A stretch of DNA of 57,734 nucleotides. Origin: Microcaldota archaeon (GTDB lineage: Archaea > Micrarchaeota > Micrarchaeia > Micrarchaeales > Micrarchaeaceae). Positions 43,268 through 47,985 of this stretch are shown one piece after another (the first letter of the stretch is position 1; the number at the start of each line of letters is the position of its first letter). The notes under the pieces are model-generated. The model had not been told where the DNA came from and made no database searches. It worked only from the letters and a program-made list of their open reading frames with translations. The position numbers and the translations under genes are program-made. The stretch covers positions 1-57,734 of the forward strand of contig JAJZZO010000004.1 of assembly GCA_021797495.1 (NCBI GenBank), in the 5' to 3' direction.

Positions 43268-43552
43268 TCAATCTCCTAAATCTTTTATCTGCTTTTCCGA
43301 GAATAATATTTCCTTCAGTTCTTTGTCTAGTGCAGGATCATTTCTTCTAATCCACTCCAGCAATAACGCTGCATGTTCCTTCTCGTCATCCCTGTTATGT
43401 TCCATCACGTGCTTTAAATCATTATCTTTAGTAGCGTCTGCGCGTTCATCATAAAACATCATTGCTTCTACCTCTTCTATAAGGGATTGTCTGGCCCTGC
43501 TTAGGTTTCTTATCTTTTCGCTCAAGTCTTCGTTTACTTCATATCTTGGCAT
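43268..43552 (-). CDS. Encapsulated ferritin-like protein (EncFtn)
   Basis: 94 aa, all-helical. The sequence RQSLIEEVEAMMFYDERADA, followed by DLKHVMEHNRDDEKEHAALL, LLEWIRRNDPALDKELKEI and LF, matches the encapsulin-associated ferritin family. Those proteins build an iron-oxidising decamer inside encapsulin nanocompartments. The expected ferroxidase residues (Glu26/27/29, Tyr34, Glu57/59, His60) are present. The C-terminal FSEKQIKDLGD is short and does not clearly resemble the usual encapsulin-docking peptide. No encapsulin shell gene lies in the window. The IS200/IS605 element begins about 80 bases upstream of its start. Confidence 0.85.
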   Translation of the reverse strand: MPRYEVNEDLSEKIRNLSRARQSLIEEVEAMMFYDERADATKDNDLKHVMEHNRDDEKEHAALLLEWIRRNDPALDKELKEILFSEKQIKDLGD

Positions 43553-43631: not shown

Positions 43632-44273
43632 TAAGGGCTTCGCCCTTATAAACCTTTACGTTCGGGTCCTCTCCGCCGACAAAGTCGGTGGTATCCCCGA
43701 ACGTCTTAATTGAAGAGACGCTTTTGATTGTCGACGTTCGAGATGTCCTGGCGCCTTATGTAGTTCTTGATCGTCGATTCGTCTGTAGGACCGACACTGT
43801 GGTTGCTGTACTGTCCTCCCCAGAAACTGCCTCTGGGATAGAGTTTCATGAAATTTGGAATCCTATGAAATATTATTGACGCTGAGTGAGATTTTAGTAT
43901 TTGCACGACCTGCACTATGGAAAGTTTGTTTGGTATACTAAGTTCCATATGGATGTGCGCGTAGTCATCGCCGAATGAGAATTCCTTTATCCCAACACCA
44001 TACATATGCGCAGCTTCTTCGATAGCGGATCTTGCGATTTCGCGATTATATTCCTTCTTGAAGTTCTTTTTCCTTTTGTTCGTCACAAATACAACGTGCT
44101 GCCAGTTGTATTGCCACTCTCTTTCACCAACATTTTTATTTTTATAGTTCACACTATCCATAACAACACTTTGGTGGCAGAACATCGGGCCGCGTAAAAC
44201 CGCGGCCACACTACCACCACTAAAATACAGGAGGAAAAGTAGGTATGTGTTTCAACTACCGACGAAGTCGGTA
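43632..44273 (-). mobile_element. IS200/IS605-family insertion element
   Basis: A single tnpA flanked by subterminal hairpins. Left side: TAAGGGC TTC GCCCTTA (43632-43648) and CCGCCGAC AAA GTCGGTGG (43673-43691), the latter nested in a longer CGTTCGGG/CCCGAACG stem. Right side: TACCGAC GAA GTCGGTA (44257-44273) and GGCCGCG/CGCGGCC (44188-44207). The paired CCGAC-AA-GTCGG hairpins near both ends fit the LE/RE hairpins recognised by TnpA. Exact ends cannot be fixed from sequence alone. No tnpB is attached. Confidence 0.75.
43706..44161 (-). CDS. tnpA: IS200/IS605 transposase TnpA (Y1 HUH)
   Basis: 151 aa from ATG 44161; ATG or alternative starts further upstream would fall inside the leader hairpin. 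The HUH motif is AHIHMELSIP (His69, His71) and the catalytic tyrosine is Tyr134 in IKNYIRRQ. Size and both motifs are intact, so the enzyme may be active. TnpA cuts and rejoins single-stranded DNA at hairpin-marked ends. A strong hairpin 27-58 bases upstream of the start could limit translation, as is known for IS200. Confidence 0.93.
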   Translation of the reverse strand: MDSVNYKNKNVGEREWQYNWQHVVFVTNKRKKNFKKEYNREIARSAIEEAAHMYGVGIKEFSFGDDYAHIHMELSIPNKLSIVQVVQILKSHSASIIFHRIPNFMKLYPRGSFWGGQYSNHSVGPTDESTIKNYIRRQDISNVDNQKRLFN

Positions 44274-45994: not shown

Positions 45995-46327
45995 TTACTT
46001 GACCTTGCCCTGCTGCTTCTTGTACCTTTTTATGAGCTCTATTGCCTGGTCTATTGACTTTTTGACTGCGGCTTCCGTCATTGCGCCAGTGCATATTATC
46101 TTGCCGTTCTTGAAAAGCAGCAATGCAGATTTTGGCTCGTGGATTTTAAGTATTGCTCCTGGAAACTGCTCCGGCTCGTAGTCGACGTCGTAAGAGAGCC
46201 TTGCCAGACCGTATAAATCCAGCTCTATCTGGAGGTCTGCACTCGCTACCATGTTTACCACCCTATACGTAGGGTGCAGCACTATGTGCTTGCTCAGAGC
46301 TGAATCGTGAGATTGGGATTTTGCCAT
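45995..46327 (-). CDS. Single-lobe TATA-binding protein
   Basis: 110 aa containing one TBP repeat only. Residues 22-100 read RVVNMVASADLQIELDL, DYEPEQFPGAILKI, EPKSALLLFKNGKIICTGA and a final helix, the complete strand-helix pattern of one TBP lobe. The two intercalating Phe (Phe55 and Phe72) and Asn25 are kept. Normal archaeal TBP is about 180 aa with two such lobes. Here the ORF ends in TAA after a basic tail (RYKKQQGKVK) and no second lobe follows in any frame. It would have to work as a dimer. It is closest by eye to the second lobe of M. jannaschii TBP (NMVATADL). Confidence 0.88.
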   Translation of the reverse strand: MAKSQSHDSALSKHIVLHPTYRVVNMVASADLQIELDLYGLARLSYDVDYEPEQFPGAILKIHEPKSALLLFKNGKIICTGAMTEAAVKKSIDQAIELIKRYKKQQGKVK

Positions 46328-46350: not shown

Positions 46351-46374
46351 GCCTTAAGGCATAAATATATATGC
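46351..46374. promoter_or_regulatory. Shared divergent promoter with palindromes (tbp / rpl21e)
   Basis: GCCTTAAGGC (46351-46360), a perfect 10-base palindrome, adjoins the near-palindromic TATA element ATAAATATATATGC (46361-46374). The TATA can serve rpl21e to the right and the single-lobe TBP gene to the left. The palindrome lies between the TATA and the expected start of the TBP gene. Confidence 0.45.
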
Positions 46375-46428: not shown

Positions 46429-46713
46429 ATGACAAAGAGATCGGCAGGTTTATTTTCAGGAAAGACAAGGAATATGGCAAGGCACCACATGCCCTCGAAA
46501 CAGAGCGTACGCTCGTACATAAAGAATTTCGAAGTAGGCGACAAGGTAGCCATAATTCCGAAGGGCAGCGTTAAGAACATACCGCACCCAAGATACAAGG
46601 GCAGGATCGGAATAATAAAGGAGAAGAGAGGCACAGCCTACGTCGTTGAAGTAACGATAATGAAGGCAAAAAGAACGCTGATAGTTCCTGCGATACATTT
46701 GGACAAGGCCTGA
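46429..46713 (+). CDS. rpl21e: Ribosomal protein L21e
   Basis: 94 aa, normal archaeal size. It has the L21e core: VRSYIKNFEVGDKVAIIPKG, then HPRYKGRIGIIKEKRGTAYV, and the end TLIVPAIHLDKA. It is a component of the large ribosomal subunit. In many archaea rpl21e precedes rpoF and the DUF655 gene on the same strand. Here those two genes are on the opposite strand next door, so the block has been broken by inversion. Confidence 0.95.
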   Translation: MTKRSAGLFSGKTRNMARHHMPSKQSVRSYIKNFEVGDKVAIIPKGSVKNIPHPRYKGRIGIIKEKRGTAYVVEVTIMKAKRTLIVPAIHLDKA

Positions 46714-46821: not shown

Positions 46822-47409
46822 TCAGTACCTTCGCTGAGGCTCTGGCCTTTTGAAGTAGGGCTTTGTGAACAGATAAAAGCGCTCTGAGCCCTGGAGCTCT
46901 TGGACAACCCTTTGCGCTATAATCCCAGCAGGATCCTGAAGCAGGGCAATCCTTGCAGTTATGTCTTCAAAGCTCTCGAACTTCTTTTCAGTCCTGGCCT
47001 TCAGTATGGCCTGAAGGTGCTTCTTCCCTATTCCGGGCAGAAGCTCAAGCGAATGCTCGCGTATGTTCAGCGGGCCTGAATTGTTGAAAAATCCTACGAA
47101 CCTCTGCGGGTTTGCCTTGATTATGTTGAGTATTATCCCCCTTAGGTTGCCCTGCGAGGTCTGTGTGAGCTCGGAATAGCTTATCCTGAACTTTATGAGG
47201 GCTATCTTTTCGCGCTCATCCTTGCCTATGTAGACGCGCTCTCCGGTAGTCATCTGCACACCCGGCTTCGGGGTGGCTTCAAGAAGAGTGAACCATTCTT
47301 CGCCTATCAATTGCGCGATGGGCTCGGACCTTGAAGAAAAAGACTTGCCAGTAGAGAGGAAATCGAGCACAAGCGCATATTCTTCCCTTCTCTCATTCTC
47401 CTTGTCCAT
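46822..47409 (-). CDS. DUF655 (COG1491) helix-hairpin-helix RNA/DNA-binding protein
   Basis: 195 aa. The N-terminal S1/OB-like part (YALVLDFLSTGKSF, GERVYIGKDEREKI) is followed by helix-hairpin-helix motifs: EHSLELLPGIGKKHLQAIL and KFESFEDITARIALL. This is the archaeal DUF655 family, usually encoded next to rpoF, as here (35 bases downstream). The family is presumed to bind nucleic acid; its function is not established. The tail is Tyr/Arg/Pro-rich. Confidence 0.92.
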   Translation of the reverse strand: MDKENERREEYALVLDFLSTGKSFSSRSEPIAQLIGEEWFTLLEATPKPGVQMTTGERVYIGKDEREKIALIKFRISYSELTQTSQGNLRGIILNIIKANPQRFVGFFNNSGPLNIREHSLELLPGIGKKHLQAILKARTEKKFESFEDITARIALLQDPAGIIAQRVVQELQGSERFYLFTKPYFKRPEPQRRY

Positions 47410-47444: not shown

Positions 47445-47780
47445 TCAGCTTCCTTTTCCGTTAATTATCGACATTACCTTGCCTACTTTCTCGTCATTTA
47501 CTCCGTTTTCCTTCATGAGTATGTTCTTGATCAAGGCAGCGCTCTTCGGCATTACCTCTATGAGCTTTGCGACAGCGTACGGGCTCAAGCCTAGCTCCGA
47601 CAATCCTTCCTGAAGCTTTTCAAGCTGCTGCTTCTTCTGGAGCCTGAACTTTTCAGCGTAGTCGAAAGCGAGCTGCTGCTCGTAAGCCAATGGCTTTGAG
47701 CTCTTCTTTCTATCCTTCAGTATTTCGTAGACATCCGAGAGTGTTGCCACGCCCTTTTCCTCGGCCTTTTTTCCTATCAT
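47445..47780 (-). CDS. rpoF: DNA-directed RNA polymerase subunit F (Rpo4)
   Basis: 111 aa from ATG 47780 (three extra codons from a start at 47789 are possible). The HRDC-like fold is recognisable: ATLSDVYEILKDRKK, then YEQQLAFDYAEKF, and the C-terminal KLIEVMPKSAALIKNILMKE. Rpo4 forms the polymerase stalk with Rpo7 (rpoE), which is not in this window. Cotranscribed with the DUF655 gene, as in many archaea. Confidence 0.92.
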   Translation of the reverse strand: MIGKKAEEKGVATLSDVYEILKDRKKSSKPLAYEQQLAFDYAEKFRLQKKQQLEKLQEGLSELGLSPYAVAKLIEVMPKSAALIKNILMKENGVNDEKVGKVMSIINGKGS

Positions 47781-47985
47781 TATAACCACTAACTATGACC
47801 GTGTACTTTCAAGAGATATTTTAGAAACAACATCTATAAAGCTTATGTATTGCCTTTTTGCATCGTGGATAACTTGCCCTGCATCTATGGAAAATTAACT
47901 CTACATGTTTGCGTTTTGGCTGCTTACGCTGGTTCCGGATACTCTTTGGATATTTGAGAATAGTTGCTGCTTACCGCATTTAATG

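Follow-up and report, generated by a model that had tools for sequence, protein, structure and literature searches.

A one-lobe TATA-binding protein at the conserved tbp locus of a Micrarchaeota genome

The tbp locus and its gene product

The window, i.e. the whole stretch of 57,734 nucleotides that was analysed, carries a gene for a TATA-binding protein (TBP) consisting of a single lobe, referred to here as paralog A. This gene and its surroundings comprise the following features, given with strand and the evidence used for their assignment:

45995..46327, (-): one-lobe TATA-binding protein (paralog A), 110 aa, ATG start; Pfam TBP, AlphaFold2 model, PDB matches, dN/dS
46022..46267, (-): single TBP lobe, residues 21-102; Pfam PF00352, positions 2-85 of 85
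46157..46180, (-): stirrup motif YEPEQFPG, residues 50-57, with intercalating Phe55; invariant in A and B except for one E53D
46361..46372, (-): putative TATA-like element ATATATATTTAT, 5' of tbp, in the 101-bp divergent intergenic region; sequence, conservation in A_DKE
46429..46713, (+): ribosomal protein L21e, divergent neighbour marking the tbp locus; Pfam PF01157, conserved synteny
46822..47409, (-): DUF655 protein, conserved tbp neighbourhood; Pfam PF04919, synteny
47445..47789, (-): RNA polymerase subunit Rpb4/RpoF, conserved tbp neighbourhood; Pfam PF03874 with E 1.5e-4, under the cut-off, position supporting the assignment

The paralog A reading frame matches the Pfam TBP profile PF00352 above its curated cut-off (E 1.4e-24) and over the whole length of the lobe, while the chain stops only a few residues past the final helix. 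All NCBIfam TBP models, in turn, score it far under their cut-offs, and the two fused lobes that define a canonical archaeal TBP are not present. An AlphaFold2 model of the single chain (mean pLDDT 87.8) predicts the fold of a complete lobe, made up of a strand, a helix, four strands and a long helix, which agrees with solved TBP lobes from the PDB to about 1 Å over 78 residues. In an alignment of 44 A sequences and 30 sequences of a second paralog, B, the DNA-contacting residues N25 and V27 as well as the Phe pair F55 and F72 are invariant, and the DNA contact T80 is nearly so. Hence, the description of this gene in an earlier note as one complete TBP repeat with Phe55 and Phe72, followed by a stop, is borne out. 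A second lobe, either further downstream or accessible by frameshift, was not found near paralog A, the adjacent frames encoding other proteins.

The TATA-like element upstream of tbp is conserved in the closest named relative, Candidatus Micrarchaeum sp. A_DKE, and occupies a similar position in further relatives; a bidirectional TATA box serving both tbp and L21e is conceivable. Synteny analysis revealed that tbp lies divergent to the L21e-Rpb4-DUF655 genes in one-lobe and two-lobe Micrarchaeota alike, in Iainarchaeota and in a small neighbouring phylum. Because this locus holds the TBP gene whether it encodes one lobe or two, the one-lobe A gene is the positional orthologue of the general TBP and not an added regulator, which argues that it is the general TBP itself. 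Paralog B, on the other hand, is located away from L21e-Rpb4-DUF655, often beside a glycosyltransferase gene. The window also contains, slightly downstream of tbp, an IS200-type Y1 transposase (43706-44209, (-); Pfam Y1_Tnp, E 1.1e-21) and, at 43268-43552 (-), an encapsulated-ferritin-like protein (Pfam EncFtn-like, E 3.9e-34).

TBP complement and distribution of one-lobe genes

The closed chromosome of A_DKE (NZ_CP060530.1) shares 92% TBP identity and the same flanking genes with the window, and on these grounds the window genome is regarded as that of a Candidatus Micrarchaeum, a member of the Micrarchaeota. A search of this genome with the TBP profile for a two-lobe copy, as suggested in the earlier note, returned exactly two matches, the window gene A and paralog B (contig C4), which are both single lobes and lie on different contigs. 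The same one-lobe A/B pair is found in A_DKE, and a two-lobe TBP is absent from the window genome, from A_DKE and from the other one-contig relatives. Comparison of the window genome with A_DKE by the Nei-Gojobori method yielded dN/dS values of 0.06 for paralog A and 0.02 for paralog B, with synonymous sites near saturation. By this measure, both paralogs are under strong purifying selection, and hence selected for function.

The wider distribution was counted in 223 genomes of the class, each at least 80% complete, with completeness varying among them; the scan of named genomes used patterns derived from this clade. In the family of the window, 48 of 55 genomes contain exactly two TBP matches, the examples inspected being separate one-lobe genes. 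Exactly one one-lobe gene is present in 33 of the 59 genomes of the sister family, including the one-contig genome G063, and two TBP matches occur in 24 of the 59. Families f14-f26 possess one-lobe genes too, mostly one per genome, and families f3-f13 two-lobe TBPs. Outside the class, nearly all of the 75 genomes of Iainarchaeota/Diapherotrites (the phylum of G247) are two-lobe, and the small neighbouring phylum (16 genomes) is mixed, in that single lobes (one to three) and two-lobe proteins both occur and G328 encodes a protein with four lobes. The length of the gene, which the earlier note suggested comparing among related genomes, is conserved in dozens of them, closed ones included.

Several unusual loci were noted along the way. 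The four-lobe protein (L272; G328, C8:9538-10695, +) is a 726-aa open frame with four tandem TBP lobes, recognised by Pfam as four stretches and devoid of the usual YEPEQFPG, after which come a hydrophobic stretch resembling a membrane segment and an additional tail. In G334, one-lobe TBPs coexist with a degenerate TBP-like protein of two lobes (L274; C1:23919-24398, +). At a contig end of G083 (L031, C39), the final third of the one-lobe TBP gene is repeated without any DNA mismatch upstream of the complete gene and in frame with it, either as a recent tandem duplication or through an error of assembly. One-lobe TBPs of viruses were considered as well and rejected, since the matches on viral contigs are two-lobe TBPs, with the exception of one contig whose two lobes are split over separate open frames.

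Relation to known TBPs

Compared with the canonical two-lobe TBPs of Methanocaldococcus jannaschii (2Z8U), Sulfolobus acidocaldarius (1MP9) and Pyrococcus woesei (1PCZ/1AIS), the single lobe displays the same fold to within about 1 Å. It also shares with them the Asn/Val/Thr and Phe-pair DNA contacts, the YEPEQFPG stirrup and a normal TFB alongside, and differs in having one lobe where those have two fused ones. The stirrup motif itself is found on all single lobes here, whereas in the three reference canonical TBPs it is constant in the C lobes (the TFB side) and variable in the N lobes. A further difference concerns the sequence FKNGK in the single lobes, which replaces the usual F-x-SGK of canonical archaeal TBPs. 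Also close are the two-lobe TBPs that Iainarchaeota and other families of Micrarchaeota possess, which belong to the same lobe clade and sit at the same L21e-Rpb4-DUF655 locus, but have their lobes fused in one chain, these lobes being unusually similar (mostly 57-76% identical in Micrarchaeota). By its description, the TBP-like domain of bacterial RNase HIII is likewise a single nucleic-acid-binding domain of TBP type, although it is fused to a nuclease, far more distant and without a role at promoters.

History of the lobes

The lobe tree, which is unrooted, was built from 110 lobes over 96 columns and is therefore coarse, with 14 lobes on the canonical side. Here, a single clade (99/93) unites all lobes of Micrarchaeota, Iainarchaeota and the small neighbouring phylum to the exclusion of canonical N and C lobes, and a lineage's N lobes frequently cluster with its own C lobes. 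In topology tests, constraining their N lobes with canonical N lobes was rejected (p 0.003), while monophyly of canonical N lobes was not rejected (p 0.38). The two lobes of two-lobe Micrarchaeota TBPs are 50-76% identical to each other (mostly 57-76%), compared to 42-55% in canonical TBPs. Moreover, in many two-lobe genes the residues that are identical between the lobes often use the same codon in 65-83% of cases, against about 48-50% expected; raised codon identity of this kind was seen among L093-L110, L148, L150 and L171. Because identical residues share codons far above expectation, the sequences indicate gene conversion between the lobes of two-lobe TBPs.

On a tree of three neighbour proteins, which has a weak backbone, lobe number needs at least three changes if L155, whose reading frame runs off the contig inside the second lobe, is scored as two-lobe. 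Lobe number thus appears to have changed in place at the tbp locus, at least three times on the neighbour-gene tree, and near-identical tandem lobes would ease a change in either direction via recombination. Both a one-lobe ancestor with later duplications and a homogenised two-lobe ancestor with later deletions are possible. An origin of A and B by fission of a two-lobe gene is not favoured, given that within the order A and B form a group of their own (weakly supported, 96/58) and do not join N and C lobes.

These data also bear on whether the single lobe could be the primitive, pre-duplication TBP kept in a DPANN lineage, in which case separate, later duplications would have given rise to the two-lobe TBPs seen in the class and in Iainarchaeota. 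The separate lobe clade, the clustering of same-lineage N and C lobes in several cases and the rejected union with canonical N lobes would all fit such a course of events. However, gene conversion at the observed codon identities can yield an identical tree pattern, the tree is unrooted with few canonical lobes, and the nearly exclusive two-lobe state of Iainarchaeota fits secondary lobe loss equally well, so that a primitive single lobe is considered unlikely.

Proposed function and alternatives

Taken together, this Candidatus Micrarchaeum probably uses the gene product, a TBP cut down to one lobe, as its general TATA-binding protein, with two lobes associating into a saddle and TFB setting the direction of transcription. 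The presumed need to dimerise follows from the established structure of TBP. Two lobes would accordingly join non-covalently on the TATA box, as A:A pairs in relatives having A alone and as A:A and/or A:B pairs in Micrarchaeum, and every lobe in such a dimer would insert its own Phe pair. In human TBP, the C-lobe equivalent of the stirrup contacts TFIIB. Since single lobes keep the C-lobe-type YEPEQFPG, a dimer would carry one such stirrup on each side, either of which could dock TFB, and direction would be fixed by the contact of TFB with the BRE. The latter contact is stated to fix transcription direction, and many archaeal TBPs to need TFB for a stable complex (review PMC7289017). The window genome encodes one TFB of 366 aa, in which a zinc ribbon is combined with both cyclin repeats, and all 10 further genomes checked likewise have a TFB gene with two repeats. 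Additionally, the predicted structure of a two-lobe relative with 69% identical lobes is a canonical saddle. TATA-box symmetry was compared by motif search in three genomes, one with A alone, one with A and B and one with a two-lobe TBP; the bootstrap ranges overlapped, and the motif was unstable in the AT-rich genome.

The proposal presupposes an intact gene that serves general transcription, and two other accounts would deny this. That paralog A is a truncated pseudogene, or the product of a frameshift or assembly error hiding a second lobe, was raised in the earlier note as a possible refutation; with neighbouring frames occupied by other genes, length and sequence conserved in dozens of genomes including closed relatives in the same one-lobe state, and a dN/dS of 0.06, its probability is next to nil. 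The same note also envisaged a second, regulatory TBP-like protein beside a full TBP doing the general work. Archaea with several TBPs do exist, as exemplified by haloarchaeal plasmid TBPs, and one relative, bin G016, holds an additional canonical two-lobe TBP on an 8-kb contig (L111; C43:2733-3251, +). That copy, however, groups with canonical archaeal lobes on a contig whose GC is somewhat below that of a family example, and is for these reasons likely a contamination, perhaps from a host archaeon. With no two-lobe TBP in the window genome, A_DKE or other one-contig genomes, and with A at the syntenic locus of the general TBP, a regulatory role is highly improbable.

Other readings accept A as a working general TBP and differ in the partners that meet at the promoter. 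The TBP of Micrarchaeaceae may be an obligate A:B heterodimer, split over two genes with its asymmetry kept, homodimers occurring only where B is lacking. In support of such an arrangement, 48 of 55 family genomes carry two one-lobe genes, and the same is suggested by the nature of B, which forms a well-supported clade common to both families (100/100), has its own conserved features (V28, H33, F60, V45 and K46), is very strongly constrained (dN/dS 0.02) and keeps its own neighbourhood next to the glycosyltransferase gene. Yet sister-family genomes manage with A alone, and full DNA-binding and stirrup motifs in both A and B leave no division of labour visible; an obligate heterodimer is thus a real possibility, though one held at somewhat less than even chances. 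In 33 of the 59 sister-family genomes one gene must suffice, because the only TBP there is one single lobe. Such genomes could also be served by a monomer that grips half a TATA box, TFB adding the remaining stability as it already does for many archaeal TBPs (PMC7289017). A lone lobe, however, would forfeit half of the minor-groove contacts, and two-lobe relatives keep lobes that could almost replace each other (mostly 57-76% identity), in accordance with a requirement for two similar lobes, which makes a monomer very unlikely. Within the preferred reading of a dimeric saddle, there is good reason to expect a symmetric homodimer only in genomes with A and no other TBP, as Micrarchaeum also has paralog B.

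Significance

TBP is generally assumed to be a covalent pseudo-dimer whose lobes stem from an ancient duplication. The statement of the earlier note that all standard archaeal TBPs have two lobes holds for the canonical ones, but one-lobe versions have already been mentioned: a single sentence in the Methods of a Nature Communications paper of 2020 (PMC7221094), naming no organisms, states that such versions were encountered in archaea, in agreement with a study from 2013 cited there (Brindefalk 2013, NAR, gkt045). One-lobe archaeal TBPs are hence a known oddity of underestimated scope. A literature search found no account of the Micrarchaeota case, and within the literature searched there appears to be no description of the scope of the phenomenon, the switch at the same locus, the A/B pair or the lobe conversion.

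In its most far-reaching form, the finding would mean an archaeal lineage whose basal transcription runs on a truly symmetric TBP homodimer, and in which tandem duplication of this lobe, at the same locus, gave rise to the two-lobe TBP anew and in parallel. This is a tentative and, on balance, rather doubtful proposition; if true, the symmetric homodimer would be a present-day counterpart of the TBP postulated to have existed before the duplication. One-lobe lineages allow a direct test of whether a symmetric TBP dimer supports transcription, and offer a test case both for direction setting without TBP asymmetry and for the evolution of lobe number. With the closed genome of Candidatus Micrarchaeum A_DKE at hand, the one-lobe TBP system is accessible.
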